A DNA stretch of 64,000 nucleotides, from assembly GCF_936916975.1 (NCBI RefSeq), contig NZ_CAKZGO010000007.1, positions 124,001 through 188,000 of the forward strand, read 5' to 3'. Source of the stretch: an uncultured Dongia sp. GTDB lineage: Bacteria > Pseudomonadota > Alphaproteobacteria > Dongiales > Dongiaceae. The notes beneath the pieces are model-generated. The model ran no database searches and had not been told where the DNA came from. It saw nothing but the letters and a program-made list of their open reading frames with translations. This document shows, piece by piece, positions 24,013 to 39,670 of this stretch (within the stretch, counting starts at the first letter, position 1; every line of letters starts with the position of its first letter). A program made the position numbers and the translations under genes.

Positions 24013-25752
24013 ATGACCTCAAAACCGACCGCGACCACAAATTCCGGCCTGAAACATCGCCGCAGCACGTTTGAAACGCTGTGGGAGGCGCTGGATTATG
24101 CTGCCGGCGGCGTGACCGGGTTGAATTTCTACACGGCCAAGGGCGACCTGGCCAATGTGCTCACCTACGCCGAATTGCGCGATCGGGCCCGCGATCTGGC
24201 GCAGCGATTCGCCGGATTGGGCTTGGAGCGCGGATCGCGGATCGTGCTGATTGCCGACACCGATGCCGATTTCGTGACGGCTTTCTTTGCCACGCAATAT
24301 GCGGGATTGCTGCCCGTACCCGTGGCGGTCCCGACCAGCTTGGGTGGCCGCGAGGCTTATATCGCCCAGTTGCGCCAGCAGCTCACGGGTTGCGAGGCCA
24401 GTATTGCGATCGGACCAGAGGCTTTGATGGGCTTCCTCACCGAGGCCGCCGCCGGTCTCGACCATGTGCGCATGACGGGGACATTCGCCGATTTCATGGC
24501 GCTGCCCGCCAACAAGGCCGTGGTGCGCCCCTTCGCCGCCGATGAGCCCAGCTATCTGCAGTTTTCGTCCGGCTCGACGCGTTTCCCCAAAGGCATCGAG
24601 ATCCACCAGCGCGTGCTGATGGCCAATGCCCACGCCATCACCCATGACGGCCTGTCGATCATGGAGATCGATCGCTGTGCGTCCTGGCTGCCGTTTTATC
24701 ACGACATGGGTCTGGTGGGTTTCCTCCTGGTTCCGGTCACGGGACAGATCTCAATTGACTACATTGCCACGCGTGACTTCGCGCGCCGGCCTTTGACTTG
24801 GCTGAAGCTGATCTCCGAAAACCGAGGCACCCTCGCCTATTCGCCGACCTTCGGCTACGAGCTGTGCGTCAAACGGATGCGCGGTGACACCGATTTTGCC
24901 GGCGATCTTTCGAGCTGGCGTGGCGCCGGCATCGGCGGCGACATGGTGCAGGACACGATTTTGCACCGCTTCAGCGATACATTTGCTCCGTTCGGCTTCC
25001 AGCACAAAGCCTTCGTGCCAAGCTACGGCATGGCCGAAACCACGCTGGCCATGAGCTTTGCGCCGCTCGACGTCGACTACACAGTCGATCACGTTGATCG
25101 TGCTGCACTCGAAAATCAGAGCGCCGAACCGACCGCGCCGGGCAAGTCCGCCCGCGCCTTGGTTGCCTGCGGCCCCGCTCTGCCGGGTCATGCCTTCGAG
25201 GTGCGCGACGAGGCCGGCAAGGCGCTGCCGGAACGCCGCATCGGGCGCATCTTCTTCAAAGGCCCCAGCGTCATGACCGGCTATTTCCGCCAGCCGGAAC
25301 TGACCGCCGAGGCATTGAGCAGCGACGGTTGGCTTGATACTGGCGACCTCGGCTATCTGCTCAAGGGCGAGATCGTCATCACCGGCCGCGCCAAGGATCT
25401 GATCATCATCAACGGCCGCAACATCTGGCCGCAGGATCTGGAATGGACTGCGGAAACGCTGCCGGACTTGCGCCGGGGCGACGCCGCCGCCTTCTCGATC
25501 GTCGGCGACGACGAGCAGGAGCAGGTCGTGGTGCTGGTGCAGTGCCGCCTGGCCGACCTCGCTGCGCGCACCAAGCTGAAGCAGGACGTGGCCGGACTCC
25601 TGCAGCGCGCGATGAGTGTCGAGGCGCGCGTCGAGCTCGTGCCGCCCAAGGGCCTGCCGCAGACCTCCTCTGGCAAGCTCTCCCGCGCGAAGGCCAAGGC
25701 CAATTACCAGCAAGGCGTCTATGCCGATGCCGATCTCGGCATCAGTGCTTAA
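24013..25752 (+). CDS. Fatty acyl-AMP ligase / acyl-ACP synthetase of sphingolipid synthesis
   Basis: About 579 residues from ATG 24013; GTG at 24007 is an alternative. It is an ANL-superfamily adenylating enzyme that activates a fatty acid with ATP and, by context, loads the dedicated ACP two genes downstream. Motif A3 is S185-S-G-S-T-R-F-P-K-G, a variant with Arg after the Thr. The A8 hinge is ITGRAKDLIIINGRNIWPQDLEW, and the C-terminal catalytic Lys is in TSSGKLSR. The sequence style (PVPVAVPTSLGGRE; WLPFYHDMGLVG) is that of fatty-acyl-AMP ligases rather than CoA ligases. As I recall, the Caulobacter ceramide locus has an acyl-ACP synthetase in the same position next to cerR, acp and spt. 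Confidence 0.9.
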   Translation: MTSKPTATTNSGLKHRRSTFETLWEALDYAAGGVTGLNFYTAKGDLANVLTYAELRDRARDLAQRFAGLGLERGSRIVLIADTDADFVTAFFATQYAGLLPVPVAVPTSLGGREAYIAQLRQQLTGCEASIAIGPEALMGFLTEAAAGLDHVRMTGTFADFMALPANKAVVRPFAADEPSYLQFSSGSTRFPKGIEIHQRVLMANAHAITHDGLSIMEIDRCASWLPFYHDMGLVGFLLVPVTGQISIDYIATRDFARRPLTWLKLISENRGTLAYSPTFGYELCVKRMRGDTDFAGDLSSWRGAGIGGDMVQDTILHRFSDTFAPFGFQHKAFVPSYGMAETTLAMSFAPLDVDYTVDHVDRAALENQSAEPTAPGKSARALVACGPALPGHAFEVRDEAGKALPERRIGRIFFKGPSVMTGYFRQPELTAEALSSDGWLDTGDLGYLLKGEIVITGRAKDLIIINGRNIWPQDLEWTAETLPDLRRGDAAAFSIVGDDEQEQVVVLVQCRLADLAARTKLKQDVAGLLQRAMSVEARVELVPPKGLPQTSSGKLSRAKAKANYQQGVYADADLGISA

Positions 25753-25773
25753 CCGCCCCCTGGTCGCCCACTG

Positions 25774-26721
25774 ATGCCAGGGATCGTTGCCCTGACCGGC
25801 GCCACAGGCTTCGTCGGCGCCGCGACCGTCCATCATCTAGCGCAAGCTGGCTGGCGCGTGCGCATCCTCACCCGGCGCATGCCGCAAGCAGCATTGATGC
25901 CGGATCACCGGATTGATGTCGTGCTCGGCGACCTGGATGACCGCGCCAGCCTGGAACGGCTGGTCACCGGCTGTGATGCCATCGTCCACAGTGCCGGCCT
26001 GGTCCGCGCACTGACACCGCTTGAATTCTTCCGGGTCAATGAACAGGGCACGGCCCATCTCCTGGAAGCAGCAGCGACGGCAGCACCCACGGCCCGCTTC
26101 GTCCATATCTCGTCTCTGGCCGCCCGCGAACCACAGCTTTCCCCCTACGCCTCCAGCAAGCATGCGGCTGAGGCCAAGCTTGCTGCGCTGGCCGGCGCGC
26201 GGGACTGGATCGCCCTGCGCCCGCCCGCTGTCTACGGTCCCGGCGACCATGAACTGCTGCTGCTGTTCAAGGCAGCCAAGCTCGGCCTCCTCGCTTACCC
26301 GGCCGAATTGGGTGCCCGGGTGTCCACGATTCACGTCGAAGATCTGGCAGCTGCGGTGGTCAAATTCTGTGAGAATGCTAATTATTCTCACAGAATTATT
26401 GAGCTGGATGACGAGAAATCCGGCGGTCATGACTGGCCCGAAATTGTCCGGATCCTGGGGCAGTGCTTTGGCCGCCAACCACTCGCATGGCGCTTGCCCA
26501 GGCCCCTGATGACGCCGATTGCCGCGGCGGTGACACTGTTCTCCAACCTTTCAGGCCGCCCGCAGGTGCTCTCAACGCACAAGTTGGGGGAGCTTTATCA
26601 CCCCGACTGGGTCGCAAAAGGGCCGAAACTGTCCAGCATGGTTAATTGGGCGCCGCGCTTCGACCTCGCCAAGGGCTTTGCCGACACCCTGCGCTGGTAC
26701 CGCTCGCAATCTCTTTTGTGA
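25774..26721 (+). CDS. cerR: NAD(P)-dependent SDR, ceramide reductase CerR-like
   Basis: 315 residues of the extended SDR (epimerase/dehydratase) type. Nucleotide binding is shown by GATGFVG (residues 9-15), and catalysis by Ser113/114 with Y125-x3-K129. In Caulobacter a protein of this type in the same cluster reduces the 3-keto group of the N-acylated base to give dihydroceramide; the assignment here rests on family plus position between the acyl ligase and the ACP/spt pair. It begins 21 bases after the ligase stop. The coding sequence contains a striking perfect 14-base inverted repeat at 26363-26397. A generic NDP-sugar epimerase is the alternative but fits the context poorly. Confidence 0.85.
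   Translation: MPGIVALTGATGFVGAATVHHLAQAGWRVRILTRRMPQAALMPDHRIDVVLGDLDDRASLERLVTGCDAIVHSAGLVRALTPLEFFRVNEQGTAHLLEAAATAAPTARFVHISSLAAREPQLSPYASSKHAAEAKLAALAGARDWIALRPPAVYGPGDHELLLLFKAAKLGLLAYPAELGARVSTIHVEDLAAAVVKFCENANYSHRIIELDDEKSGGHDWPEIVRILGQCFGRQPLAWRLPRPLMTPIAAAVTLFSNLSGRPQVLSTHKLGELYHPDWVAKGPKLSSMVNWAPRFDLAKGFADTLRWYRSQSLL
26363..26397. repeat. Perfect 14-bp inverted repeat inside cerR
   Basis: Arms AATTCTGTGAGAAT (26363-26376) and ATTCTCACAGAATT (26384-26397) are exact reverse complements around the spacer GCTAATT. The block is AT-rich within a GC-rich gene and encodes residues about 197-208. Confidence 0.9.
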
Positions 26722-26758: not shown

Positions 26759-26777
26759 TTGTTACATACGGTAACAA
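26759..26777. promoter_or_regulatory. Operator-like dyad upstream of acp-spt
   Basis: TTGTTAC-ATACG-GTAACAA is a perfect 7-base inverted repeat in the AT-rich 142-base gap between cerR and the ACP gene. The size and symmetry fit a transcription-factor site; the factor is unknown. Confidence 0.4.
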
Positions 26778-26863
26778 TTCGTCATTTAACTTTAGCACCA
26801 AAATTTACGACAACCTCCTGGCAGAGATGCGGCGCGAGTCGTTCCCTGCCTAAGGGGTTCCCA

Positions 26864-27181
26864 TTGTTAACAGATTCGATAACAAGAAAAGATTGGTCCG
26901 ACATCGTGGCGGCTAGTGCAGCGCAGGTTTCCAGTTTCTCTCTCCATGACGTCGTGGCCGAAATTGCCACAGCGCTGGTGCCGTTCAAGAAGTCCGAGAT
27001 CGAGATCACGGCGACCACCGATATCTCCCGTGACCTCAACATGGACTCGCTCGCGGTGATGGATCTGCTGATGGAGCTCGAAGACAAATTCGATGTCTCC
27101 ATCCCACTCAACATGGTGCCGGAGATTTCAACGGTCGGCCAGCTTGCCCAGACCGTGATTGATTCGAAGAAGGGGGCGTAG
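26864..27181 (+). CDS. Dedicated acyl carrier protein for sphingolipid synthesis
   Basis: About 105 residues from a TTG that follows AAGGGG at a good distance; GTG at 26906 would give a shorter form, and a TTG at 26759 a longer one that runs through likely promoter DNA. The ACP fold is clear: acidic helices and the phosphopantetheine Ser62 in LNMDSLAVMDLLMELEDKFD. It ends two bases before spt, so the two are translated together. In the Caulobacter pathway a separate ACP of this kind carries the acyl chain that serine palmitoyltransferase condenses with serine. It is not the housekeeping AcpP, whose usual fab neighbours are absent. Confidence 0.88.
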   Translation: MLTDSITRKDWSDIVAASAAQVSSFSLHDVVAEIATALVPFKKSEIEITATTDISRDLNMDSLAVMDLLMELEDKFDVSIPLNMVPEISTVGQLAQTVIDSKKGA

Positions 27182-27183: not shown

Positions 27184-28404
27184 ATGGGGTTGATGGATCG
27201 TTTCAAGGCGCAGCGCGAATTGCATGCCGCCGTGAAGACCTGCGGTGCCGACCCGTTCGGCGTGAAGATGGACAAGATTCTGTCCTCCACCGAAGCCCTG
27301 GTCGAAGGCCGCCGCACCATCCTCTGCGGCTCCAACAACTATCTCGGCTTCACCTTCGATGCCGATTGCATCCAGGCTGCCAAGGACGCGCTTGATGCCT
27401 GCGGTACCGGCACGACCGGCTCGCGCATCGCCAACGGCTCCTACAACGATCACAAGGCCCTCGAAGCCGATCTCGCCGATTTCTATGGCAAGAAGCATTG
27501 CATGGTCTTCACGACCGGCTATCAGGCCAACCTCGGCGCCATCTCGACCCTCGCCGGCCCGGACGATTTCCTGATCATCGACGCCGACAGCCATGCCAGC
27601 ATCTACGATGCCTGCAAGCTGGGCTCGGCCACCGTGATCCGCTTCAAGCATAACGACCCGGCCGATCTTGATCGCCGCCTGGGCCGCCTGGCCGACCAGC
27701 CCGGCAACAAGATCGTCGTCGTCGAAGGCATCTATTCGATGCTGGGCGATCATGCCCCGCTCAAGGAATTCGTCGCCGTCAGCAAGAAGCACGGCGCCTA
27801 CATCCTGGTCGACGAAGCTCACTCGATGGGCGTCATGGGCAAGACCGGCCAAGGCGTCGTCGAACATGACGGCGTGCTCGATCAGGTCGATTTCATCACC
27901 GGCACGTTCTCGAAGAGCATGGGCGCCATCGGCGGCTTCCTGGTCTCGAACGATCCGGATTTCGAAATCCTGCGCGTTTCCTGCCGTCCCTACATGTTCA
28001 CGGCATCCTTGCCGCCGGCGACCGTCGCCTCGGTGCGCGTCTCACTGGCGAAGCTGCGCGCCAACCCGGGCCTGATGAACAAGCTCTGGGACAATGTCGA
28101 TACGCTTTACAACGGCGTCCAGGCTGCCGGGTTCTCTGTCGGCAAGCAAAAGGGCCCGGTTGTCGCCATTCATCTGACCGACCCGGCCATGGCGGCGCGT
28201 GCGTGGCGTGCCCTGCTGCTCAATGGTGTCTATGTGAATTTGGCCCTGCCGCCGGCGACGCCGTCGGGCACGGCGCTGCTGCGCTGCTCGGTTTCTGCCG
28301 CGCATAGCACGGAACAGCTTGAGACGGTCGTCTCGATCCTGAGCCAGATCGGCCGCGAAATCGGCATCCTCAAGAACGAGACCCGTGCCGTCGCTGCAGA
28401 ATAA
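27184..28404 (+). CDS. spt: Serine palmitoyltransferase
   Basis: 406 residues of the alpha-oxoamine synthase family. It condenses L-serine with an acyl thioester to 3-ketosphinganine, CO2 being released, using PLP. Visible features are SNNYLGF near residue 46, the GTGTTGSR block, DEAHSMGVMG with the PLP-binding Asp and His, and Schiff-base K244 in GTFSKSMGAIGG. Close relatives (KBL, AONS, ALAS) share these motifs. The call as spt rests on the adjacent ACP, acyl-ACP ligase and CerR, which form the bacterial ceramide set. It is followed by a strong terminator. Confidence 0.93.
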   Translation: MGLMDRFKAQRELHAAVKTCGADPFGVKMDKILSSTEALVEGRRTILCGSNNYLGFTFDADCIQAAKDALDACGTGTTGSRIANGSYNDHKALEADLADFYGKKHCMVFTTGYQANLGAISTLAGPDDFLIIDADSHASIYDACKLGSATVIRFKHNDPADLDRRLGRLADQPGNKIVVVEGIYSMLGDHAPLKEFVAVSKKHGAYILVDEAHSMGVMGKTGQGVVEHDGVLDQVDFITGTFSKSMGAIGGFLVSNDPDFEILRVSCRPYMFTASLPPATVASVRVSLAKLRANPGLMNKLWDNVDTLYNGVQAAGFSVGKQKGPVVAIHLTDPAMAARAWRALLLNGVYVNLALPPATPSGTALLRCSVSAAHSTEQLETVVSILSQIGREIGILKNETRAVAAE

Positions 28405-28461: not shown

Positions 28462-29037
28462 TTATTTGGGTTCCAGGCCGCGCCAGATATCGGCTTCGCG
28501 CCAGCCTAGCTCGGCGAAATCCTCGCTGCGGAATTTGGCGTCGCCCGCACAAAAAAATTCATCGAGCTGCGGCGGCGCCACATCGGTGCCGGCCAGCATG
28601 GCATGTGCCTGGCCGCGGTGATGAATCTGATGTTCGAAGAGATGTAACAGGATGCGATCGGCGCGGTCGACCTGAACATGTGTCGCCCGATGCATATGAA
28701 CCGGTAGCGCCAGCGCGGCATCGTCGAGCTTCTCGCAGAACGCGATGAGGCGTTGATCGACCGCCGTCTGCGCCGCGCGCAGATCGGAGAATTTCGGGCA
28801 AGGTATTTCGTTCTCCCAGGCCTTCGGGCCGAGAGTGCCGCCTTCCAGCGCATCGACATAGAACCAGTCGACCACCAGGATATGATTGAGGGTCGCGACC
28901 ACAGACGGGAAGAAACTGGTGCGCGTGGCCGCAAACGCATCGGCCGACAGTCCCGCGCAGGCCTTCAACAGGCGATGGTTGGCCCAGGCATTGTTCCGCG
29001 CCATCGCCAGAAAGTAGAGACCAGCCCCCGATGTCAT
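28462..29037 (-). CDS. DinB/YfiT-like metal-binding four-helix protein
   Basis: About 191 residues from the ATG that follows AGGAG; a GTG two codons upstream is also in frame. The DinB-fold metal site is visible as His in ATLNHILVVDW and the later EHQIHHRGQAHAML motif. Family members are thiol-dependent transferases or isomerases, or have no known activity. They should not be confused with DNA polymerase IV. It lies between spt and the Tam41-like gene on the same strand as the latter (28 bases), so it may be co-transcribed with the lipid-headgroup genes. A link to sphingolipids is not established. Confidence 0.85.
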   Translation of the reverse strand: MTSGAGLYFLAMARNNAWANHRLLKACAGLSADAFAATRTSFFPSVVATLNHILVVDWFYVDALEGGTLGPKAWENEIPCPKFSDLRAAQTAVDQRLIAFCEKLDDAALALPVHMHRATHVQVDRADRILLHLFEHQIHHRGQAHAMLAGTDVAPPQLDEFFCAGDAKFRSEDFAELGWREADIWRGLEPK

Positions 29038-29065
29038 GACCACTCCTTCGCTTGCCTTGGGCTTG

Positions 29066-29977
29066 CTACCTGAATGCGCCGCGCCGATAGAGCTTCCACG
29101 CCAAACCCGGCGCCGCCAACAGCGGGTGTCGACGCTGCCAGTCGGTCACCGGAATGACCACGCCCGAATGGCGCCGCACCTTCCACATCACGTAATCGAC
29201 TGCGCCATCAAAGGTGAAAGCCGCCTTGACCAGGCGGAGATAGTTGAGCGTCTTGCCGAGCAGGCGCCGGCCGCGCCAGCGTTGCATGGCTTCTTCCCGC
29301 GTCACGCCTTCCGCCTGTGCGGGCGCCAACAGCAGCATACCGATCTGCCGATAGCGCGCTTCATCTGCCGCCACGATCGCGAGCGCCCGATCACTCGATT
29401 CAGAACGGAGCTCCGCCGCATAGGTTGCCATGAAGCCACGCTGCCACACAGTCAGCGGGTCAACCTTCTCGCCCAATTGCAGCAGCGGCAGCGCGTTGCC
29501 GAACATCGTGCGGCAGGCTTGTGCCAGCGCATCGGCCAGCATCAAATCGACCACGGGTTCGCGCGACCAGATCAAACGCGCCGGCTGGCAGAAGCGCGCC
29601 CAGATAGAGACGTTGCGTGCGTCACGGCCGCAACCTGCTGAAAACTGTCGCAGGGACATGACGGCGTATTTCGCGCGCAGATGGGCGCCCTGCCACGGCA
29701 GTTCGACATAGAACACATTGGGCGGCAGTAACGCGTTGGCCCAAGCCAGCAGCGGATTGCCATAGGCCGCATTGTAGTCATCAACAATAAGGTAGAAATC
29801 GAGCAGGCCGTCAGTCAATGCCTGATCCGGTTGCCGCAGGCAGGACCCGTAGAACAGGACGCCAAGGACCGCACGTCCGTGACGCTGCCGGCAATGCTCG
29901 GCCATCGCACGCGCGGCCGGGCCCACGGGAACATGGAGTTCGTTGGCGATCAATGCGGCAAGAGCATCCGACGCCAT
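29066..29977 (-). CDS. Tam41-like cytidylyltransferase, candidate ceramide-1-phosphate/phosphatidate cytidylyltransferase
   Basis: 303 residues. It resembles the Tam41/MMP37 branch of the pol-beta nucleotidyltransferase superfamily, which makes CDP-diacylglycerol in mitochondria. Points of resemblance are FYGSCLRQ (YGS at 43-45), LLDFYLIVDD (59-67), RAKYAVMSLRQF (101-112) and IWARFCQPARLIW (125-137). These correspond to the Tam41 YGSG, DFI-x-V-D, IKYGVI and LYVAGR-x-x-KPV blocks. No membrane span is seen. It is downstream of a DAGK-family kinase and a CDP-AP enzyme, which gives the order kinase, CTP activation, headgroup transfer. I recall a gene of this type (cpgC) in the Caulobacter ceramide phosphoglycerate set. 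The lipid substrate is inferred. Confidence 0.75.
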   Translation of the reverse strand: MASDALAALIANELHVPVGPAARAMAEHCRQRHGRAVLGVLFYGSCLRQPDQALTDGLLDFYLIVDDYNAAYGNPLLAWANALLPPNVFYVELPWQGAHLRAKYAVMSLRQFSAGCGRDARNVSIWARFCQPARLIWSREPVVDLMLADALAQACRTMFGNALPLLQLGEKVDPLTVWQRGFMATYAAELRSESSDRALAIVAADEARYRQIGMLLLAPAQAEGVTREEAMQRWRGRRLLGKTLNYLRLVKAAFTFDGAVDYVMWKVRRHSGVVIPVTDWQRRHPLLAAPGLAWKLYRRGAFR

Positions 29978-29995: not shown

Positions 29996-30982
29996 CTAGA
30001 ACCGGTGAAAGCGCATGACCGGGCCGGCCGTGACGATAATGCGGCCGCTGGCCGGTGCCTCAAACTTCTCGCCATCGATCATCACCGGTGAACTGATATC
30101 AAGCACCAGCTTTTCCATCCGGCGGCTGAGATAACCAGCCGCCGCCATCCAGGGCTTCGGCTTGCCGCGCAGAACCGCGAGGGCCGCGGAGGCGAAGCGG
30201 CGCGGCGGTGAATCGATCGTGGTCAGTTGCAGGCGACCTGGTCCCTCGCCCCAGAACGGTGCGACACCGGGCAACACGGTCTGCAGGGTCGACGCCAGAA
30301 ACATCAAGCAATCGCGTCGCTCGGCCTGCCCATCGATGGTGAGGCCGATGTCTTCGCCATGGAAACCAGAACGCGGGCCCGGCCCGAAAACGAGAATCTT
30401 CAGGATCGACCAGGCAATGCCAAGCTTGGCGGCAAAGGTCTGCTTGGCACCCAGGGTATGGATGTCGCGCCGCACCAGCTGAGTGCCCTGATAAAAGCCG
30501 ATGCCGCCGATCAGGAAACCGCGCTCGATGACGCGGCCATCGCCAAAATCGACCGACAGCACCGGACGTTCCAGGATCTCGCCGGTCTCGCCCGCTTCGG
30601 CGCGCAATACCAGGCGCTTCAGACCCGTCGCCGGCAATCCAGGCTGACCGACCTCATGAGCAATCACATTGGTCATCCCAGCGGAGAGCAGGCTGAGGCA
30701 GGGCTGCGTCTTGAACGGACTGTCATTCAGCAGTGCCGACACCACCGCGAGGACGGTGCCGTCGCCACCACTGATGGCAAGATGTGTCACCTCCGCCGCC
30801 GCCATTTCCGCGAGGCAGCTCGGCAGTTCTAGGATGTGCTGGAAGCTGCGATGCAGAACCTGCGGATGATCGGCCAGCAAGGCATGAATCTCGCGCATCG
30901 ACATCTTGTTGCGCTTGCTATGCGCATTGCTGATGACGCCGATCCGGACCATGGGCACCCGGGTCATGGCTATTTGGGCCAT
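29996..30982 (-). CDS. DAGK-family lipid kinase, ceramide kinase (CpgB)-like
   Basis: About 328 residues from the ATG two bases after the upstream CDP-AP stop; the frame is open to 31090 but overlaps that gene. The diacylglycerol/sphingosine-kinase catalytic core is shown by the GGDGT motif at 72-76 (ISGGDGTVLAVV), with the following LSAGMTNVIAHE. It would phosphorylate a lipid hydroxyl with ATP at the inner face of the membrane. In Caulobacter a kinase of this family in the ceramide cluster (CpgB) is, as I recall, a ceramide kinase. Position between CDP-AP and Tam41-like genes supports the same role here, making ceramide-1-phosphate. Confidence 0.85.
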   Translation of the reverse strand: MAQIAMTRVPMVRIGVISNAHSKRNKMSMREIHALLADHPQVLHRSFQHILELPSCLAEMAAAEVTHLAISGGDGTVLAVVSALLNDSPFKTQPCLSLLSAGMTNVIAHEVGQPGLPATGLKRLVLRAEAGETGEILERPVLSVDFGDGRVIERGFLIGGIGFYQGTQLVRRDIHTLGAKQTFAAKLGIAWSILKILVFGPGPRSGFHGEDIGLTIDGQAERRDCLMFLASTLQTVLPGVAPFWGEGPGRLQLTTIDSPPRRFASAALAVLRGKPKPWMAAAGYLSRRMEKLVLDISSPVMIDGEKFEAPASGRIIVTAGPVMRFHRF

Positions 30983-30984: not shown

Positions 30985-32106
30985 TCACGATGCCTCGGTC
31001 AGCCATGATTGCAGGCGCAAACCGCGGGCGCGGGCGATGAAGGCCTGGCCGATCCGCACGCAATGAAAAATGAACGAGAGAATCGTCCACCAGGCGACGA
31101 TTTCAAAACCGATATCGGGTGCCCCTAGAATGACGGCAGCGCTGAGGATGAGGAGGTTCGGATTGCGCCGCGCCGTGATCTGGCGAAACGCTGAATCCAG
31201 CGGTCGCCAGATATGCATCTCAATCCCGAAGCGCCAGATGAACAACCCTTCCTGGCCGCGTCCCAGCAAATAGCCGGCGATGATCACCCAGAAGGTCCAG
31301 GGCGCCACGGTTGCAGCGCCGCCCAGCCCTTCATACCAGGCCCAATACCAGAAAGGCGGATGCACCAGGTCGGTGCCGTGATCGAACACGTTGCCCCATT
31401 TGCTCGACGTCAGCGTACAACGGGCCAGCTTGCCGTCGACCGTGTCCAGGAAACACATCGCCCAGGCGGCGATGAGGCCCGCCCCGAAAGCGCCGATCGC
31501 AAACCACCAGGTGGCGAGCAGCACGCAGATGAAGCTGACCAGCGTCACCATGTTGGGCGAGATGCCGAACCGGGCGCAGAAACGCGTGACATAGAGCGCC
31601 GGGACCGGCCAGACATGCTTGGTCACCACGTCGGTGACGCCCTTATAGGATTCCATATACATGCGGCGCTCGATCTCCGCGGTCGGCAGCTTGCCGATCT
31701 CGTAGAGATAGGGCGCACCCTTGCGGCGGAGCGCCTTGTTGTAATTGCTGGCGAGGCCCGCGGCGTCGACGATCGTGAAGCCAGGTGGCAACAGGCGCTG
31801 ATCGCCGGCCTTAATGGCGGCGGTCATGCCCGGCAACAAGGACGGGTCGTCGGCGTGACCAGCCATAGGTTGGCCGTCATTGTTGGTCAGCACCTTGCCC
31901 GGCTGCTGCAGAAGCGCCTTGACCAGAGCTTCATCGAAAATGGCGTCAGCCCGGAACACAAGGCCCGGCGAATCAGGCATGTCGCCCGCCACTGCGGCAC
32001 GGGTCAGGGCGCGCTCCAGGCGCTGGCGCGGCGTCAGGCCCCAGACAATCTCGGCCGACTCGTTGACGAAGACCACTTCCAGCCTTCTATCTAGTTGAAT
32101 TGTCAT
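30985..32106 (-). CDS. CDP-alcohol phosphatidyltransferase family protein (CpgA-like; paralogue 2)
   Basis: 373 residues. Residues 1-125 are a degenerate nucleotidyltransferase-like domain (EVVFVNESAEIVWGL; PGFTIVDAAGL). The membrane domain has the full motif D221-x2-D224-G-x2-A228-R229-x8-G238-x3-D242-x3-D246 (DTVDGKLAR; GNVFDHGTD). MESYKGVTDVVTKHVWP at about 151-167 matches the WSNYKGSTDFFT block of the paralogues at 14183 and 35605. It heads an operon with the lipid kinase and Tam41-like gene, and is divergent from the metallophosphoesterase. With those partners it could use a CDP-lipid and an alcohol such as glycerate to build a phosphosphingolipid headgroup. Confidence 0.87.
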   Translation of the reverse strand: MTIQLDRRLEVVFVNESAEIVWGLTPRQRLERALTRAAVAGDMPDSPGLVFRADAIFDEALVKALLQQPGKVLTNNDGQPMAGHADDPSLLPGMTAAIKAGDQRLLPPGFTIVDAAGLASNYNKALRRKGAPYLYEIGKLPTAEIERRMYMESYKGVTDVVTKHVWPVPALYVTRFCARFGISPNMVTLVSFICVLLATWWFAIGAFGAGLIAAWAMCFLDTVDGKLARCTLTSSKWGNVFDHGTDLVHPPFWYWAWYEGLGGAATVAPWTFWVIIAGYLLGRGQEGLFIWRFGIEMHIWRPLDSAFRQITARRNPNLLILSAAVILGAPDIGFEIVAWWTILSFIFHCVRIGQAFIARARGLRLQSWLTEAS

Positions 32107-32290: not shown

Positions 32291-33259
32291 GTGACCGGCT
32301 ACACACTGGCCCATTTCAGCGACCCGCATCTTGGCCCCCTGCCCGCCATCGGCTGGCGGGATCTGGCCAACAAACGGCTGTCCGGCTTCTTTTCCTGGTC
32401 GCGTAACCGGGTCCGGATCCACAAGCCGGCCGTTCTCAAACTGCTGGTGGACGATTTACGGGCCCAGGCGCCTGACCACACCGCGATCACCGGTGATCTC
32501 GTGAACATCTCGCTGCCGACGGAATTCGCTGCCGCCGCAAGCTGGCTGAAAACTGTTGGCGGCCCCGACGACGTGACGGTGATCCCGGGCAATCATGACG
32601 CCTATGTCGACATGCCCTGGGACGAGTCTCTGGCTTTGTGGGCGCCTTACATGCGCGGCGCCCGGGGCACGACTGGCACAGAGACGCTGCCCGGCAGCGC
32701 AGAGGACTTCCCCTTCATTCGCCGACTGGGGCCGATTGCGCTCGTCGGTACGTCGACGGCCGTGCCGATGCCGCCCTTCATCGCGGCAGGTCGCCTTGGC
32801 GAGAGCCAACTGGCGCGTTTGCGCGACCAACTGAAGCGTCTGGGCGCCGAGGGAGCTTTTCGCGTCGTGCTGATCCATCATCCGCCCTTTGGTGGTGGCG
32901 CCTACAAGCGAAAATCGCTGCTCGACGCCCAGGCATTCCAGGACGTTCTGGCAGAAGCAGGCGCCGAACTGGTGCTTCACGGCCACACCCATGTCTCGGG
33001 CCTCGGCCGAATCCCCGCCGCACAGGGACCAATTCCTGTCATTGGCGTGCCGTCAGCATCGGCGGTCGCTGCGGGACACAAGGATCCGTCACGCTATCAC
33101 CTCTACAAGATCCGCCGTGGCACTGAATCCTGGCTGATCGACGTTGATGTTCGCGGCCTCAATGCCACCGAAAATGCCTTTGAACATCAAGGTGGTATGG
33201 CGCTCACGATTCCCCTGATATCATCAAAGACTTTCGCGGCTGCCGGGACGGCGGCGTGA
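32291..33259 (+). CDS. Calcineurin-like metallophosphoesterase
   Basis: 322 residues from GTG after AAGGA. The dimetal site is complete: DPHLG near residue 13, GDLVN, GNHDAY, HHPP and HGHTH. It hydrolyses a phosphoester or pyrophosphate in the cytoplasm; the substrate cannot be read from the motifs. Relatives include UDP-diacylglucosamine hydrolases, cyclic-nucleotide phosphodiesterases and lipid-phosphate phosphatases. It is divergent from the CDP-AP/kinase operon and is followed 44 bases later by lptF on the same strand. A role in lipid intermediate turnover is plausible by location only. Confidence 0.88.
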   Translation: MTGYTLAHFSDPHLGPLPAIGWRDLANKRLSGFFSWSRNRVRIHKPAVLKLLVDDLRAQAPDHTAITGDLVNISLPTEFAAAASWLKTVGGPDDVTVIPGNHDAYVDMPWDESLALWAPYMRGARGTTGTETLPGSAEDFPFIRRLGPIALVGTSTAVPMPPFIAAGRLGESQLARLRDQLKRLGAEGAFRVVLIHHPPFGGGAYKRKSLLDAQAFQDVLAEAGAELVLHGHTHVSGLGRIPAAQGPIPVIGVPSASAVAAGHKDPSRYHLYKIRRGTESWLIDVDVRGLNATENAFEHQGGMALTIPLISSKTFAAAGTAA

Positions 33260-33303: not shown

Positions 33304-34512
33304 ATGAAGTTTCTTCGCATCGATCTTTACATCCTGAAGCGCGTGGCGCTGCCGCTGCTGGCGACTGTGGGCGTTGCCATGGCGGCGCTGCTGCTTGAGC
33401 GGCTGATCCGCCTGCTGGATCTGTTCGCCAATCGCGGCGGCCCGATGAACATTGTCATCAAGATGCTGGCCAATCTGGTGCCACATTATCTTGGCATTGC
33501 GGTGCCGGCGGCGCTCTTCGTGGGCGTGCTTTATGCCAGCATGCGCCTTTCCTCCGACAGCGAACTTGATGCCATGCGCGCAAGCGGCCTGTCGCTGCGC
33601 CGCCTGATGGCACCGATCCTGGCACTGTCCGTGGTGCTGGTCATCGTCAGCGGTTACCTCATCGGCTTTCTCCAGCCCTATACCCGTTTCGGCTATCGCG
33701 CCTTGGTGCATCTCGTCGTCGAGACGGCCTGGGATTCTGCGATCGAGCGCGGGGCATTTTTCACTGGCTTTGGTGGCAAGACGATTCTGATCGGCGACAT
33801 TTCCGAAGGCGGCCGCAAGCTTTCGCAGATCTTCGTCAAGGAAGTTGATGAGAACGGCCAAGACCTCGTGATCACCGCCGAGACTGGGCAGCTTGACCGC
33901 GGCCGCGACCTGACGCTGATCCTGACCCTCTATAACGGCGTGCGAACCGAAGTCACACCGGGCACCGACCAGGCCGAGGCCGTCGAGTTCACCGAACTCA
34001 AGCTGCCGATGGAATCTGTGACGCCCGAACCGTTCCGCAATCGTGGCGAGCGTGAGAGCGAACTCGATTTCGTTGAGCTCATTCAGGCCTATTTCAACAC
34101 ACCGCCGACTTTGCACATCGAAGACATCAAGGCAGAACTCAACAGCCGATTGGTGCGCACGGTATCCATCATCTTCCTACCGCTCCTCGCCATGCCGATC
34201 GGGGTTTCGTCTCGGCGCACGTCCAAGGGTCTGCGCCTCTTGGTCGGAATCTTGTTTCTGGTCGCCTATTTCCAGATCCTGCAGTTCGGACGCGATGCTG
34301 TCGGCAGCGCCATCCTCGGGCCGCTGGTGGCTTTGTGGCTGCCCTTTGCCATCTTCGGCAGCGTCAGTCTGTGGTTGTTCCATCTCGCCAATTCCCGTCC
34401 CGGTGCCGATCCACTGGCGCATGTCTTCGAATCCATTTCCGATGGGTCGGATTGGGTCGTCGCCAAGCTGCGGCGCCTGTGGCCGCGCCGCAAACGAGAG
34501 ATCGCAGAATGA
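33304..34512 (+). CDS. lptF: LptF-family permease
   Basis: 402 residues of the YjgP/YjgQ family. Six membrane spans are arranged three and three around a periplasmic beta-jellyroll (about 150-260). The cytoplasmic coupling helix motif SSDSELDAMRASGLS follows span 2. In the LPS pathway LptF and LptG form the membrane part of the LptB2FG extractor. The stop overlaps the lptG start by four bases. The usual alphaproteobacterial neighbours (lptD, surA, pdxA, rsmA, pepA) are absent, and the pair instead sits among sphingolipid genes. It could be the only lptFG copy, moved here, or a paralogue for another lipid. Confidence 0.92.
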   Translation: MKFLRIDLYILKRVALPLLATVGVAMAALLLERLIRLLDLFANRGGPMNIVIKMLANLVPHYLGIAVPAALFVGVLYASMRLSSDSELDAMRASGLSLRRLMAPILALSVVLVIVSGYLIGFLQPYTRFGYRALVHLVVETAWDSAIERGAFFTGFGGKTILIGDISEGGRKLSQIFVKEVDENGQDLVITAETGQLDRGRDLTLILTLYNGVRTEVTPGTDQAEAVEFTELKLPMESVTPEPFRNRGERESELDFVELIQAYFNTPPTLHIEDIKAELNSRLVRTVSIIFLPLLAMPIGVSSRRTSKGLRLLVGILFLVAYFQILQFGRDAVGSAILGPLVALWLPFAIFGSVSLWLFHLANSRPGADPLAHVFESISDGSDWVVAKLRRLWPRRKREIAE

Positions 34513-35600
34513 ACACATTCAGCCGCTATGTGCTGCGCAGCTTCCTGTGGCAGTTTGCGCTGCTGCTGATCGGCTTTACCGCGCTGCTGCAGCTCTTTGA
34601 CCTTCTCAACAACAGCGCCGATATCCTGCAGGATCATTTGGGCGATATGAGCGCAGTCGCGGAATACGCGGCGCTACGCTTGCCCGAGATCGCCTCGTTC
34701 CTCATTCCCTTTGCTGTGCTGATGGGTGCGCTCATCACGCTGGGGCGGATGGAGCGCAATAACGAAATCATGGCCTTCAAGGCGGCTGGTGCCCCCTACT
34801 TCACCGTATTGTGGGCCTTCCTGCCTGCCGTCGGTATCGTTGCTTTCCTGCACTTCTTCCTTGCGGACCAGCTCGTGCCGATCTCGATCCAGACACTGGT
34901 GTCGCGAGATTTGATCGCCGAGCGCAGCAAATCGAAGAACGAAACCAAGAATGATCCGTTGTTCGTCCAGGAAGGTAATTCGGTCATCGAAGCCGGCGCG
35001 GTCGGGCTGGACGGTGTCATCCTCAGCCACCTGCGGATCTATCAGCGTGATGATACCGGCAAGATGGTTAAACAGATTTTCGCGAATGACGCTCACTTCG
35101 ACAGCGCTACCGAGAAATGGGTCCTCACCAATGTCTGGACGACGCTGGTTCCGGCTGGCGGTGCTGCGCAGACAGAACATGTAGATAAGCAGGAATGGCA
35201 AACCCAGCTGACCCCCGCCGAATTCTCCGACCTCGTCGAGAAGCCGCAGGCTATGACCTTTATGAAGTTGAGGAGCCTCGTGACCTCAACCCAGGTCGGC
35301 GTGCGGCCAACTTATTTCTATGAGACATGGCAGCAGAAGCGCATCGCGTTGCCGGTGAGTTCGATCCTGATGATCCTGCTCGCCGCACCTGTGGCGCATT
35401 CGCTGCATCGGCGCGAGCGTGGGTTGGCGGCCGGCATGACGATTGGTTTTGGCCTCGGCTTTCTCTATTTCCTGACCGACGGCCTGGTGTTGTCGCTGGG
35501 TGAGTCCGGGGCCGTCCCGCCATTCCTTGCTGCCTGGTTGCCGATCCTGCTCTTCGCCGCCATTGGTGGCGCCTGGCTGATCAAGCAAGAAGGCTATTGA
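34509..35600 (+). CDS. lptG: LptG-family permease
   Basis: 363 residues from the ATG that overlaps the lptF stop; the frame is open further upstream but only as an overlap with lptF. Six spans, a central periplasmic domain (about 130-270) and the coupling-helix motif LGRMERNNEIMAFKAAG identify LptG. The typical LptG feature RPTYFYETWQQKRIALP precedes span 4. It would form the heterodimer with LptF and need the ATPase LptB, which is not encoded in this window. It is followed four bases later by a CDP-AP gene, so the three are one transcript. That linkage suggests a headgroup-bearing lipid as cargo, which is inference. Confidence 0.92.
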   Translation: MNTFSRYVLRSFLWQFALLLIGFTALLQLFDLLNNSADILQDHLGDMSAVAEYAALRLPEIASFLIPFAVLMGALITLGRMERNNEIMAFKAAGAPYFTVLWAFLPAVGIVAFLHFFLADQLVPISIQTLVSRDLIAERSKSKNETKNDPLFVQEGNSVIEAGAVGLDGVILSHLRIYQRDDTGKMVKQIFANDAHFDSATEKWVLTNVWTTLVPAGGAAQTEHVDKQEWQTQLTPAEFSDLVEKPQAMTFMKLRSLVTSTQVGVRPTYFYETWQQKRIALPVSSILMILLAAPVAHSLHRRERGLAAGMTIGFGLGFLYFLTDGLVLSLGESGAVPPFLAAWLPILLFAAIGGAWLIKQEGY

Positions 35601-35604: not shown

Positions 35605-36831
35605 ATGAAGCTGTGGATCGATGCCGGGCGCACCAGCGCTGGGCGGGACGGCGCCGAGCACGTCTTTGGCATGGATCTGATCGAACGCCATCTGAAGGCC
35701 GCACGCCATCAGAAGCTTGAGCTCAGCGAAGTCATCATCGATGTCGGCGACGGTGCTGCCCCCGTTTGGGCTAGCGAGCCGCGCCTCGGCTGTCCCGTGC
35801 GCGTCGAAAGCGGCAGCGGTAATTGCGGCGATCGCTTGAGGCGCGCGCTTGCGGCCGGCGAGGTGCTGCTGGTGAGCGATGCGGCGACCCTCGCCGATGC
35901 CAGGCTCTATCGCTATCTCGCAGATCGAACCGGGAGTGCCGCCGTCCGCGCCAACAAGGCGGCCATCGGCCGTGTCGAACCGGCGGATGCGGAGAAAATT
36001 CTCTCGGCGCCAACGCTCGACGCCGCCATCGGGCATCTTGCCGAAGTCTCCCAGGACGAGTTCCCGTCCTTTGTCGTGAAGCTGCGGCGTGCCCTGCCCT
36101 TCTACCTTTTCTCCGTCACCAATCCGGCGGAACGTAAATCGGTCGAGCGTTTCCTGTTCTGGTCGAACTACAAGGGCTCGACCGATTTCTTCACGAAGTA
36201 TGTCTACCCGCCGCTGGTCTGGGCCATGGTGCCGCCGCTGGCGCGTGCGCGGGTTCATCCCAATACGGTGACGCTGGTCAGCATCGTGCTCACGGTGCTC
36301 GCGGTGCCACTGTTTGCCACGGGATATTTCTGGTGGGGCTTTGCCTGCGCCTATGGCATGAGCGTGCTGGATTCGGTCGATGGCAAGCTCGCGCGCCTCA
36401 CCTTCACCGATTCAGCTATCGGCAATGTGCTGGATCATGGCCTCGATATCGTGCATCCGCCATTCTGGTATTTCGGTTGGGCGATCGGGCTGCTGGGCGG
36501 CTGGGCTGTCACGGATTTCAACCAACCGCTGTGGCAGGCGGCCTGGATCATGATGGCGCTCTATGTGCTCGACCGGCTGATCCTCGCCGTCTACCGAGCG
36601 AAATATAAGCGCGGTCTCCATACCCATGCGCCGATGGACGCAGTCGTGCGCACGTTTATTTCGCGTCGCAATATCAACCTTCCTTTATTTACAGTAGCTT
36701 ATGCGGCGGGGTGGGGTGTCGAGGCGTTTTATGTGGTGGTTTTGTGGCAGGCCTTGACCTGCACCTATCACGGCCTGCGCACGATCTGGATCCTGGGGAC
36801 TTATCGCCCTGCGGCCAAACGCCATCCATAA
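35605..36831 (+). CDS. CDP-alcohol phosphatidyltransferase with N-terminal nucleotidyltransferase-like domain (paralogue 3)
   Basis: 408 residues. Residues 1-150 keep the outline of a nucleotidyltransferase (GMDLIERHLKAA, VIIDVG, VLLVSDAATLADA) but lack the glycine-rich signature and Lys. The membrane domain has D256-x2-D259-G-x2-A-R264-x8-G273-x3-D277-x3-D281. FWSNYKGSTDFFTKYVYPPLVW at the junction is nearly identical to the gene at 14183, and the two are recent paralogues. Co-transcription with lptF/lptG ties it to lipid synthesis or export. The architecture recalls the inositol-phosphate cytidylyltransferase/DIPP synthase fusion of hyperthermophiles, but without an intact first domain. Confidence 0.88.
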   Translation: MKLWIDAGRTSAGRDGAEHVFGMDLIERHLKAARHQKLELSEVIIDVGDGAAPVWASEPRLGCPVRVESGSGNCGDRLRRALAAGEVLLVSDAATLADARLYRYLADRTGSAAVRANKAAIGRVEPADAEKILSAPTLDAAIGHLAEVSQDEFPSFVVKLRRALPFYLFSVTNPAERKSVERFLFWSNYKGSTDFFTKYVYPPLVWAMVPPLARARVHPNTVTLVSIVLTVLAVPLFATGYFWWGFACAYGMSVLDSVDGKLARLTFTDSAIGNVLDHGLDIVHPPFWYFGWAIGLLGGWAVTDFNQPLWQAAWIMMALYVLDRLILAVYRAKYKRGLHTHAPMDAVVRTFISRRNINLPLFTVAYAAGWGVEAFYVVVLWQALTCTYHGLRTIWILGTYRPAAKRHP

Positions 36832-36920: not shown

Positions 36921-37709
36921 ATGATCCGTTTCGGCTTCTGGAAAGACCGGACCCATAATCTCGACCGCATGTCGTTGAAGGATCTGGTGCGGGCATTCGC
37001 CACCTATCCTTCCGTGCACGCCTATATCGGCCTTGCCGCGGTCAGCCTCTATCTGGTCGTGCGCTGGTATGACGGCTGGGCGCCGCTCGCCGTGGCGGTG
37101 GGCCTTGCGATCGTCATCTACCCGCTGGTCTGGTACGCGCTCCATCGCTGGGTGCTGCATAGCCAGTTCCTCTACAAATCACCGCTGACCGCCAAGGTGT
37201 GGAAGCGCATCCATTTCGACCATCACCAGGACCCGCATAATCTCGTCGTGCTGTTCGGGGCGCTCTATACGACCATCCCCACCATCGCCATCGTCACCAT
37301 GCCGATCGGCTACGCGGTCGGTGGCCTTGCCGGTGCCGCAATGGCGTTTGCAACCGGGCTGCTCACCACCTGCTTCTACGAATTCTCCCATTGTGTGCAG
37401 CATCTCAACACCGCGCCCAAGACCAAGTTCATGAAGCGCATCAAGCAACTGCACATGTGGCATCACTTCCACAACGAGCAGGGCAATTTCGGCATCACTA
37501 ATTTTCTGTGGGACCGGCTCGGCAACACCTATTATTCCAAGGCCAGCGCTGTGCCGAAGAGCCCGACGGTGTTCAACATCGGCTATACCGCAGAGATGGC
37601 GGAGCGCTATCCCTGGGTGGCACAGATGTCGAACAATACGCGTGGCGACGGCAATCCACGCCGCTTCCGCACGGGTGCCGACGCCGCGGATAACGGCCCC
37701 GCCGCGTAG
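36921..37709 (+). CDS. Membrane fatty-acid-hydroxylase/sterol-desaturase family protein, candidate sphingolipid hydroxylase
   Basis: 262 residues with about four membrane spans and the di-iron histidine boxes: HRWVLH (75-80), HFDHH (98-102), HCVQH (157-161) and HMWHH (178-182). The family introduces hydroxyls or double bonds into sterols, carotenoids, fatty acids or sphingoid bases using O2. The position, 89 bases after a CDP-AP gene and 30 bases before the bCerS-like gene, suggests hydroxylation of the ceramide base or acyl chain, analogous to eukaryotic Sur2/Scs7. That substrate is inferred. Confidence 0.87.
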   Translation: MIRFGFWKDRTHNLDRMSLKDLVRAFATYPSVHAYIGLAAVSLYLVVRWYDGWAPLAVAVGLAIVIYPLVWYALHRWVLHSQFLYKSPLTAKVWKRIHFDHHQDPHNLVVLFGALYTTIPTIAIVTMPIGYAVGGLAGAAMAFATGLLTTCFYEFSHCVQHLNTAPKTKFMKRIKQLHMWHHFHNEQGNFGITNFLWDRLGNTYYSKASAVPKSPTVFNIGYTAEMAERYPWVAQMSNNTRGDGNPRRFRTGADAADNGPAA

Positions 37710-37739
37710 TCCTTCCATATCACTGATAGGCAGACGCTC

Positions 37740-38876
37740 ATGGCGGCGATCGACGTTGTTCCAGTCACCGACAAGGCTGGGCTGAAGGCCTTCATTGCCT
37801 TGCCCAAGCGGCTCTATCGTGGTCACAAAGGGTATGTGGCCCCGCTCGACATGGAACGCGGCGAAGTCCTCTCGCCCAAGAAAAATCCCTATTTCACCCA
37901 CGCCAAGGCGCAGCTGTTTCTGGCGACGCGGGATGGCAAGGTGGTCGGCCGCATCTCGGCCCAAATGTGCGAGTTGGAACAGAAACTGCGCCCCGGCACC
38001 GGCCATTTCGGCTGGCTGGATGCCGAGGATGATCCGGCCATTTATCAGGCCCTGATCAACGCCGCCGCCGATTGGCTGCGCGCGCAAGGATCGACTCGCA
38101 TGGTCGGCCCGTTCAGCTTTTCCAGCAATGAGGAAACCGGCCTGCTGGTCGAGGGGTTCGACAGCCTCCCGATGCTGCTGATGCCCTATCACGCGCCCTA
38201 TGCCGGCAGACACGTCGAGGCTGCCGATCTGGCACGACTGAAAGACGTATTGGCCTACGATCTCGATAAGAGCGCCTACAAACCCGTGGGATCATCGCGC
38301 ATGCTGGAGAAGCTGCAATCGGATGGCACCATCCGCATGCGCGGGCTCGACATGAAGAATTACACCCAGGATCTCAGCATCATCCTCGACATCTTCAATG
38401 ATGCCTGGTCGGAGAACTGGGGCATGGTGCCGTTCACCGCCACCGAAATCGCCGCAGCCGCGGCTTCGATGAAGCCGCTCATCGATCCCGACCTCGTCAT
38501 CATCGCCGAGGTGAAGGGCGAGCCAGCCGGGATGCTGGTCTGCCTGCCCAATCTCATGGAAGCGATCCGCGACTTTGACGGCAGCCTGCTGCCGTTCAAC
38601 GTCGTCAAGCTGCTCTATCGCTTGAAGGGCAAGAAGCTGAAGACCAGCCGTATTCCCTTGATGGGCATCCGTCGCAAGCATCATGGCTCGGTGCTGGGCG
38701 CTACCTTGCTGCCCCTCATGTTCGATCGTCTTAAGGAACCGTTCCTGAAGCGCGAATTGGAGCGGGTCGAGATGTCCTGGATTCTCGAAGACAATTTGCC
38801 CATGCGGCGCGTGATCGAAGGTATTGGCGGCAAGGCCTACAAGACCTATCGCCTCTACGAAAAATCGCTGACCTGA
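37740..38876 (+). CDS. Bacterial ceramide synthase (bCerS)-like GNAT-fold acyltransferase
   Basis: 378 residues. The N-terminal segment IALPKRLYRGHKGYVAPLDMERGEVL, followed by KNPYFTHAKAQLFLATRDGKVVGRISAQ, is characteristic of the large GNAT-like family that includes Caulobacter bCerS, the enzyme that N-acylates 3-ketosphinganine. The C-terminal half repeats a GNAT-like unit (LVIIAEVKGEPAGMLVCLPN; SWILEDNLPMRRVIEGIGGKAYKTYRLYEK). There is no signal peptide or membrane span. It shares its stop with the next gene start (TGATG). The spt, acp, acyl ligase and cerR genes in the same locus make this the most likely ceramide synthase here. Confidence 0.87.
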   Translation: MAAIDVVPVTDKAGLKAFIALPKRLYRGHKGYVAPLDMERGEVLSPKKNPYFTHAKAQLFLATRDGKVVGRISAQMCELEQKLRPGTGHFGWLDAEDDPAIYQALINAAADWLRAQGSTRMVGPFSFSSNEETGLLVEGFDSLPMLLMPYHAPYAGRHVEAADLARLKDVLAYDLDKSAYKPVGSSRMLEKLQSDGTIRMRGLDMKNYTQDLSIILDIFNDAWSENWGMVPFTATEIAAAAASMKPLIDPDLVIIAEVKGEPAGMLVCLPNLMEAIRDFDGSLLPFNVVKLLYRLKGKKLKTSRIPLMGIRRKHHGSVLGATLLPLMFDRLKEPFLKRELERVEMSWILEDNLPMRRVIEGIGGKAYKTYRLYEKSLT

Positions 38877-39670
38877 TGGCAACCTTCAACGCCTTGATCC
38901 TGGCTGGCAATCGGCGCGAGGGCGACAGTGTCGCTAAGCTCACCGGCGTCAGCCACAAGGCGCTGGCGCCGATCAATGGCGTGCCCATGTTGCAGCGGCT
39001 CTATCGCACCCTGCGCGCCTGCCCCGGCATCGCGGACATCTATGTCTGCATTGACGATGCCACGTTGCTGGACAGCATCGCCGAGTTGGCGGAGGCCCGC
39101 GATACGGGTGGCTTGCGCATCGTGCCACCGGCGGAGAGCCCTGCGGCGAGTGTCGCGCTGGCGCTCGACGCCATCGGGCTACAGCGGCCGCTCCTCGTCA
39201 CGACAGCCGATCATCCGCTGCTAAGTGTCGAGATGGTTTCGCATATGGTGGCAGAAGCGCCGGCCGATGCCGATCTCAGTGTCGGTCTTGCGGAGGCCGA
39301 TACGGTGATTGCCACTTATCCGGATGCTATCCGCACCTTCTATCGTTTCAAGGGTCGGCGCTTCAGTGGCTGTAATTTGTTCTTCGCCCGCGGCGAGAAC
39401 GCCCGGAAGGTCGCCGCCTATTGGCAGCAGATGGAGCGCCATCGCAAGAAGCCTTGGCGCCTGGTGTGGCAGGTCGGGCCAATGGCCTTGCTGCGGATCC
39501 TGCTTGGGCAACTGAGCCTCGACGATGCCTTCGCGCATGTCTCCCGCCTGACCGGCGCCCGCATCAGGCCCGTGCTCATGCCATTCGCCGAGGCGCCGAT
39601 CGATGTCGACAAGCCGGCTGATTACGAGCTGGTCAGTGCCATCCTGCGCAAGCGCGAAGGAACCGCCTGA
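38876..39670 (+). CDS. NTP-transferase domain protein (MobA-like nucleotidyltransferase)
   Basis: 264 residues. The N-terminus has an intact nucleotidyltransferase signature, ALILAGNRREGDSVAK (residues 6-21), then K28 in SHKALAPINGVPML and the metal-binding VTTADHPLL. It would activate a phospho-compound with CTP or another NTP. It is translationally coupled to the ceramide synthase gene. In this window it is the only intact nucleotidyltransferase of this type, while three CDP-AP enzymes carry degenerate versions of the same domain. It might therefore supply CDP-activated headgroup. MobA and CofC-like functions are alternatives, but no molybdopterin or F420 genes adjoin. Confidence 0.8.
   Translation: MATFNALILAGNRREGDSVAKLTGVSHKALAPINGVPMLQRLYRTLRACPGIADIYVCIDDATLLDSIAELAEARDTGGLRIVPPAESPAASVALALDAIGLQRPLLVTTADHPLLSVEMVSHMVAEAPADADLSVGLAEADTVIATYPDAIRTFYRFKGRRFSGCNLFFARGENARKVAAYWQQMERHRKKPWRLVWQVGPMALLRILLGQLSLDDAFAHVSRLTGARIRPVLMPFAEAPIDVDKPADYELVSAILRKREGTA

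Follow-up and report, generated by a model that had tools for sequence, protein, structure and literature searches.

Between positions 24013 and 39670 of a 64,000-nucleotide stretch of contig NZ_CAKZGO010000007.1 (the window), an uncultured Dongia sp. carries a locus that is, by gene content and order, a version of the Caulobacter cluster for the sphingolipids ceramide phosphoglycerate (CPG) and CPG2. In bacterial sphingolipid synthesis, the conversion of ceramide-1-phosphate (C1P) to CPG is a gap. The best explanation of the locus, with a probability of roughly 0.65, is that it is the Dongia version of the CPG/CPG2 biosynthesis and export cluster, in which a diacylglycerol kinase (DAGK)-type enzyme would make C1P and a protein with the predicted fold of the cytidine diphosphate-diacylglycerol (CDP-DAG) synthase Tam41 would convert it to CDP-ceramide. 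The predicted Tam41 fold and two modules of exact co-inheritance are new here, and they name one candidate enzyme for CDP-ceramide. If this enzyme works as proposed, CDP-ceramide would join CDP-diacylglycerol as a CDP-lipid.

Fold and inheritance of the Tam41-like protein

Sequence searches with the Tam41-like protein found no relative in Pfam, NCBIfam (E 0.001) or, by profile, the Protein Data Bank (PDB) sequences. None of 15 members of its family matched PF09139, the Pfam Tam41 model, and PF09139 gave no match above its cut-off and two sub-threshold matches over 299 genomes of the phylum; the genome of the window (G000) had no match. An AlphaFold2 model computed from a 15-row alignment has a pLDDT (predicted local distance difference test) of 89.6. 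The first four Foldseek matches to this model are Tam41 structures (E 3.6e-7 to 4.1e-5). Structural comparison gave Z = 18.6 for 7ecd over 219 residues at 2.9 Å and Z = 14.6 and 14.4 for the yeast Tam41 entries, and the first family outside Tam41 was an aminoglycoside nucleotidyltransferase at Z = 7.2. The predicted fold is the one that the Dongia protein has in common with Tam41 (7ecd, 6ig2 and 6ig4). A Gly-Ser pair and a downstream Asp are invariant across 15 relatives, which we take to be the Tam41 motif. The model predicts that the protein folds like the CDP-DAG synthase Tam41. The label "Tam41-like", given by an earlier sequence-only reading of the window, holds for the fold and not for Pfam membership, and because PF09139 does not match, the protein is called Tam41-fold and not a PF09139 member.

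The inheritance of the pathway genes was followed in 387 alphaproteobacterial genomes that are at least 90% complete. The bacterial ceramide-synthase-like gene cerS occurs in 58, the Tam41-like gene in 45 and a full-length CpgA-type CDP-alcohol phosphotransferase (CDP-AP) in 24. The three sets are strictly nested: each of the 24 CDP-AP genomes also has the Tam41-like gene, and each of the 45 Tam41-like genomes also has cerS. The searches for serine palmitoyltransferase (spt), the kinase, CpgD and the MobA/CofC-like nucleotidyltransferase of the locus (NT) covered 67 genomes of this sample, namely the 58 with cerS and 9 controls chosen without it. A recount confirmed that the kinase, NT and Tam41-like sets are exactly identical, comprising 45 of the 58 cerS genomes and none of the other 13; the only kinase match in the controls is a 47.6-bit fragment in G017, which was not counted. 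CpgD and the CpgA-type CDP-AP share the same 24 of the 58 genomes, and the next-best CpgD-like match scores 117 bits. The 58 genomes fall in 25 families. Three of these are mixed for the kinase, Tam41-like gene and NT, which switch together there, and two are mixed for CpgD and CDP-AP, which also switch together. The pathway is split into two modules, kinase/Tam41-fold/NT and CpgD/CDP-alcohol enzymes. The kinase travels with the Tam41-fold protein and not with the CDP-alcohol enzymes, which fits the conversion of C1P to CDP-ceramide as a two-enzyme step. With this support, we infer the order ceramide, C1P, CDP-ceramide.

Weak or partial matches were left out of the counts: Tam41-like in G045 (19.7 bits, partial), cerS in G073 (88.8 bits, partial) and G131 (19.5 bits), CDP-AP below 61 bits (weakest kept, 326; weakest best match of a genome, 362), NT below 35 bits, and CpgD-like at or below 117 bits (weakest kept, 285). 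Fragmented genes and genes interrupted by a contig end were kept, G157 and G192 among others.

High-scoring spt is present in 56 of the 58 cerS genomes (exceptions G049 and G300) and in 44 of the 45 Tam41-like genomes (exception G300), and scores in the controls are at most 283 bits. The kinase, Tam41-like and CDP-AP genes are therefore not found mostly in genomes lacking spt and cerS; every one of the 45 Tam41-like genomes has cerS. Gene neighborhoods were compared in named loci, the best 80 of 578. Of these loci, 46 offer 9 kb or more on each side, and in 44 of them the Tam41-like gene has spt or cerS no farther away than about 10 kb; L047 and L049 are one assembly, genomes of some loci overlap with those of L024-L036, and the kinase of L072, where kinase and Tam41-like matches overlap one long open reading frame (ORF), was set present by hand. 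The same gene set recurs in relatives' stretches, and the association is above chance. G010, a single-contig Dongiaceae genome, has two cerS copies and spt without Tam41-like gene, kinase or NT, and is a same-family genome without the module.

The locus and its Caulobacter counterpart

The sequence-only reading had described a near-complete sphingolipid locus, and this is borne out: all the genes that it listed are found within 24013-39670 in the ORF list and translations. It had passed over the DinB-family gene, the phosphoesterase, LptF and LptG. The features are as follows.

24013..25752, + strand, aasR-like fatty acyl-AMP/ACP ligase (PF00501 166 bits; NF006624 809.1 bits, cut-off 600)
25774..26721, + strand, cerR-like short-chain dehydrogenase/reductase (SDR), preceding acpR and spt (PF01370 102 bits)
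26759..27181, + strand, acpR, acyl carrier protein (ACP) (PF00550 42 bits, ORF residues 79-132)
27184..28404, + strand, spt, serine palmitoyltransferase (PF00155, aminotransferase I/II, 176 bits; NCBIfam equivalog NF047599 655.5 bits, cut-off 500)
28462..29043, - strand, DinB-family gene between spt and the Tam41-like gene (PF05163)
29066..29977, - strand, Tam41-fold protein in the CpgC/CC_1161 position, proposed CTP:ceramide-1-phosphate cytidylyltransferase (predicted fold; co-occurrence)
29996..30982, - strand, DAGK-type kinase in the CpgB/CC_1160 position, proposed ceramide kinase (PF00781 37.4 bits; beside the Tam41-like gene)
30985..32106, - strand, CDP-AP1, CpgA-type CDP-alcohol phosphotransferase in the CC_1159 position (PF01066 36.6 bits; tree clade 100/100)
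32291..33259, + strand, calcineurin-type phosphoesterase, CC_1158-like (PF00149)
33304..34512, + strand, LptF-family export permease (PF03739 237 bits)
34509..35600, + strand, LptG-family export permease (PF03739 245 bits; start set from relatives' stretches)
35605..36831, + strand, CDP-AP2, two-domain CDP-alcohol phosphotransferase (PF01066 38.0 bits; predicted fold like IPCT-DIPPS and AF2299)
36921..37709, + strand, fatty acid hydroxylase family protein (PF04116 72.8 bits)
37740..38876, + strand, cerS, putative bacterial ceramide-synthase-like acyltransferase in the CC_1154 position (gene order; co-occurrence with spt)
38876..39670, + strand, NT, MobA/CofC-like nucleotidyltransferase in the CC_1153 position, not CpgD (PF12804 56.3 bits; PDB 2dpw E 3.6e-19)
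14183..15475, + strand, CDP-AP3, third CDP-alcohol phosphotransferase, outside the interval of the sequence-only reading (PF01066; tree clade with CDP-AP2)

The four ceramide-backbone genes aasR, cerR, acpR and spt form one run and are followed by the DinB-family gene. A divergent run holds the Tam41-like protein, kinase and CDP-AP1, and a final run extends from the phosphoesterase to NT, with spacings of -4 to +89 bp from LptF to its end. The backbone run and the grouping of LptF, LptG and cerS agree with the published cluster order. The spt of the window clears the cut-off of the NCBIfam equivalog for proteobacterial serine palmitoyltransferase (NF047599), and the kinase and Tam41-like gene are 18 bp apart, as CpgB lies beside CpgC in a CPG/CPG2 cluster; kinase activity is predicted in Dongia. 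The kinase ORF stays open to 31090 and overlaps CDP-AP1, and the true acpR start is probably farther inside its ORF than 26759. The cerS product matched nothing in Pfam or NCBIfam, and its putative name follows from the published Caulobacter gene order and the co-occurrence with high-scoring spt. Apart from the window, only some close relatives have the DinB-family gene at this place (4 of the 13 fetched stretches L024-L036), and it is probably unrelated to the sphingolipid pathway.

The 17-gene Caulobacter region (CC_1152-CC_1168) includes aasR, cerR, acpR, spt, CC_1161, the kinase CC_1160, the CDP-alcohol enzyme CC_1159, the phosphoesterase CC_1158, LptF2, LptG2, CerS, CC_1153 and CC_1152 (PMC11324152), and the Dongia counterparts, from the ceramide genes to the CC_1153-like NT, stand in nearly the order of CC_1165-CC_1152. 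Dongia differs in having two further CDP-AP genes (35605-36831 and 14183-15475), a CpgD-like gene that lies on a separate contig, a pair of upstream ABC transporter genes, and a PF04116 hydroxylase in the cluster, whereas the candidate Caulobacter hydroxylase CC_0202 (DesA family) lies elsewhere (PMC11324152). CpgB is a ceramide kinase (PMC10331486). CpgD (CC_1152) was shown biochemically to make CDP-glycerate (PMC12275187), and its structures are reported in a preprint (PMC13228409). Loss of CC_1160 or CC_1161 abolishes CPG, and loss of CC_1159, CC_1153 or CC_1152 abolishes CPG2 with CPG kept (PMC11324152). CPG-type lipids can partly replace lipopolysaccharide in Caulobacter (PMC12275187).

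A bacterial CDP-ceramide, which the sequence-only reading considered notable, had been anticipated in 2024, when CC_1161 was suggested from its CDP-DAG-synthase InterPro domain to form nucleoside diphosphate (NDP)-activated ceramide, with the next enzyme unknown (PMC11324152). The term "CDP-ceramide" itself was not found in the literature searched, though the NDP-activated form is proposed there (PMC11324152); among the papers listed for an activated ceramide, this one alone has a title on bacterial sphingolipids. The two-module result makes that suggestion directly testable.

In the proposed pathway, aasR, acpR, spt, cerR and cerS would produce dihydroceramide, which the PF04116 hydroxylase may hydroxylate. 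The DAGK-type kinase would form C1P, and the Tam41-fold protein would use CTP to convert it to CDP-ceramide. CPG would then arise when an enzyme encoded outside the locus, perhaps one of the housekeeping CDP-alcohol phosphotransferases, couples CDP-ceramide with glycerate. CDP-glycerate would come from CpgD, whose gene lies elsewhere in the genome, and from it the CpgA-type CDP-APs would add phosphoglycerate to CPG; the LptF/LptG-family proteins would help export the product. The scheme draws on the gene content, predicted folds and co-occurrence observed here; the kinase and CpgD activities and the mutant lipid profiles come from the Caulobacter work of others and are applied by analogy, and we infer each reaction in Dongia, the CDP-ceramide step in every organism, and export.

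CDP-alcohol phosphotransferases and the alternatives

The sequence-only reading counted two CDP-alcohol phosphotransferases, which is correct for its interval; the window holds three, and each of the 5 genomes that represent the genus in the class sample has CDP-AP3. The genus is that of Dongia mobilis; by position and match, the same-genus genome G005 corresponds to D. mobilis CGMCC 1.7660 (L040). The CDP-ceramide-type route of the sequence-only reading is supported in so far as the kinase lies beside the Tam41-fold protein and is co-inherited with it (45/45). The final step of that route, in which the CDP-APs transfer CDP-ceramide to an alcohol, is not supported: a CpgA-type CDP-AP is missing from 21 of the 45 Tam41-like genomes, and the CDP-APs coincide genome by genome with CpgD (24/24). 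For the same reason the kinase/Tam41-like/CDP-AP triplet, whose conservation with spt and cerS had been put forward as a check, is rejected as an inherited unit. The CDP-AP and CpgD sets are identical, so the presence of the CDP-alcohol enzymes follows the supply of CDP-glycerate. Enzymes that use CDP-glycerate to add phosphoglycerate to CPG would show this pattern.

The CpgD-like gene of this genome lies outside the window on another contig (G000:C6:289446) and is 51% identical to a Nitrospirales cluster copy. In the alignment its Arg14 and Lys24 sit, by hand count, two places before the R16 and K26 named in PMC12275187. NT was considered as CpgD and rejected, since the two are separate genes in L047 and L121 and since NT tracks the Tam41-like genes and CpgD tracks CDP-AP.

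A tree of 35 CDP-alcohol paralogues separates CDP-AP1 (22 rows, 100/100) from CDP-AP2 plus CDP-AP3 (13 rows, 100/100). Dongia CDP-AP3 nests beside Dongiaceae CDP-AP2 in a set of nine supported at 99/96. CDP-AP2 begins 4 bp after lptG in the window and also occurs in three genomes of other families, two with the same placement between lptG and hydroxylase; that search used a profile without CDP-AP1 members, of which the tree is independent. In Nitrospirales the kinase and Tam41-like gene are flanked by two CDP-AP1-type genes that arose independently. The additional copies may be for headgroups that are longer or of another kind.

The CDP-AP2 model has the two-domain layout of IPCT-DIPPS (4mnd; Z = 24.7, 355 residues, 4.5 Å) and of AF2299 (Z = 23.2, 323 residues, 3.3 Å). 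Residues D256, D259, G260, A263, R264, G273, D277 and D281 are invariant in 19 alignment rows and fit the CDP-alcohol phosphotransferase signature D(x)2DG(x)2AR(x)8G(x)3D(x)3D. The first domain has a nucleotidyltransferase fold in the model. Unlike in IPCT-DIPPS and AF2299, no CTP-binding loop was recognizable in it by eye in the alignment, and this domain may be inactive.

Direct use of CDP-ceramide by the cluster CDP-APs, or at least by CDP-AP2 in Dongia, is suggested by the position of CDP-AP2, embedded between lptG and the hydroxylase gene in 10 of the 13 relatives' stretches (hydroxylase not found in one), by the resemblance of its domain to phosphatidylinositol phosphate (PIP) synthases, which use a CDP-lipid, and by the two CDP-AP genes that flank the kinase and Tam41-like gene in Nitrospirales too. 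However, the best full-length fold match of CDP-AP2 is IPCT-DIPPS, which transfers from a CDP-activated soluble alcohol, and the distributions described above favor CDP-glycerate as the donor. The Caulobacter CpgA gene CC_1159 is moreover dispensable for CPG (PMC11324152), and direct use is unlikely.

Also considered and rejected was the idea that genomes without CpgA encode an additional, dedicated CDP-alcohol enzyme at another place, because these genomes have no excess of PF01066 genes: the 21 Tam41-like genomes without CpgA have 2 to 5, as do the 9 examined of the 13 Tam41-less cerS genomes. Nine of the 21 have only 2, and the score bands suggest that such genomes hold only housekeeping members.

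In a second alternative there is no CDP-ceramide, and the Tam41-like protein uses other chemistry to link glycerate to C1P, the fold serving a different donor. This early CpgC model is reported in PMC11324152 as a proposal for CC_1161 and is there called energetically unfavorable. It would need no dedicated CDP-AP in the 21 genomes, and all 45 Tam41-like genomes have NT, which might produce an activated glycerate; against this, the Caulobacter NT mutant still makes CPG (PMC11324152). Since the fold match is to CTP:phosphatidate enzymes, glycerate attachment is doubtful.

Very improbable is a general CDP-DAG synthase that happens to sit in the locus: the best fold matches are CDP-DAG synthases, but nearly every bacterium needs CDP-DAG and this family is confined to 45 of the 387 genomes, each of which also has the ceramide kinase and cerS genes. 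The CC_1161 mutant of Caulobacter also loses CPG (PMC11324152).

Several points weigh against the kinase-to-Tam41-fold route to CDP-ceramide. The Dongia protein is only 13-16% identical to the Tam41 structures, and its family is invisible to PF09139 and, in a further difference from Tam41, co-inherited with a ceramide kinase. We know of no assay of any Tam41-like protein on C1P. The PF01066 counts (21 CpgA-less against 9 Tam41-less genomes) reveal no co-inherited CDP-ceramide transferase. NT accompanies the kinase and Tam41-like gene also in genomes without CpgD and CpgA, a distribution that fits poorly because Caulobacter NT is needed for CPG2 only and not for CPG. G300 has the Tam41-like gene, kinase, NT and cerS without a high-scoring spt. 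The Fisher p-values for the nesting ignore phylogeny, and the comparison with Caulobacter was made on published gene order and descriptions.

A broader proposal is put forward tentatively, at somewhat less than even confidence. In many bacteria that make sphingolipids, CDP-ceramide would be an obligatory intermediate, the product of a Tam41-fold enzyme always inherited with a ceramide kinase. Headgroups would be built from two CTP-activated halves, CDP-ceramide and CDP-glycerate, and duplicated CDP-APs, in Dongia and independently in Nitrospirales, would lengthen or vary them.

Neighboring genes and other lineages

An ELM1-family gene (12912-14087, + strand; PF06258 197.6 bits) adjoins CDP-AP3 in the three Dongia genomes examined (the window, L128 and L129), and ELM1-like matches lie near the sphingolipid locus in L121, L124, L045, L068, L100 and L113. 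Beside the cluster are two convergent ABC transporter genes (ABC_membrane plus ABC_tran; 17620-19482, + strand, and 19431-21356, - strand), possibly lipid flippases; a similar gene adjoins a CDP-AP2-type gene in G098 (L125). A 663-residue protein (21823-23814, - strand) without a significant Pfam match is located beside the cluster in 8 of the 13 stretches L024-L036.

Kinase, Tam41-like and CpgA-type genes occur in the Nitrospirota metagenome-assembled genomes (MAGs) L047, L049, L052 and L079. L047, L052 and L079 add to these a ceramide synthase-like gene, a hydroxylase, NT and a CpgD-like gene, and their fetched stretches contain no spt. The kinase and Tam41-like pair is also present in MAGs L106 and L114, named Desulfuromusa sp. 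and Deltaproteobacteria bacterium.

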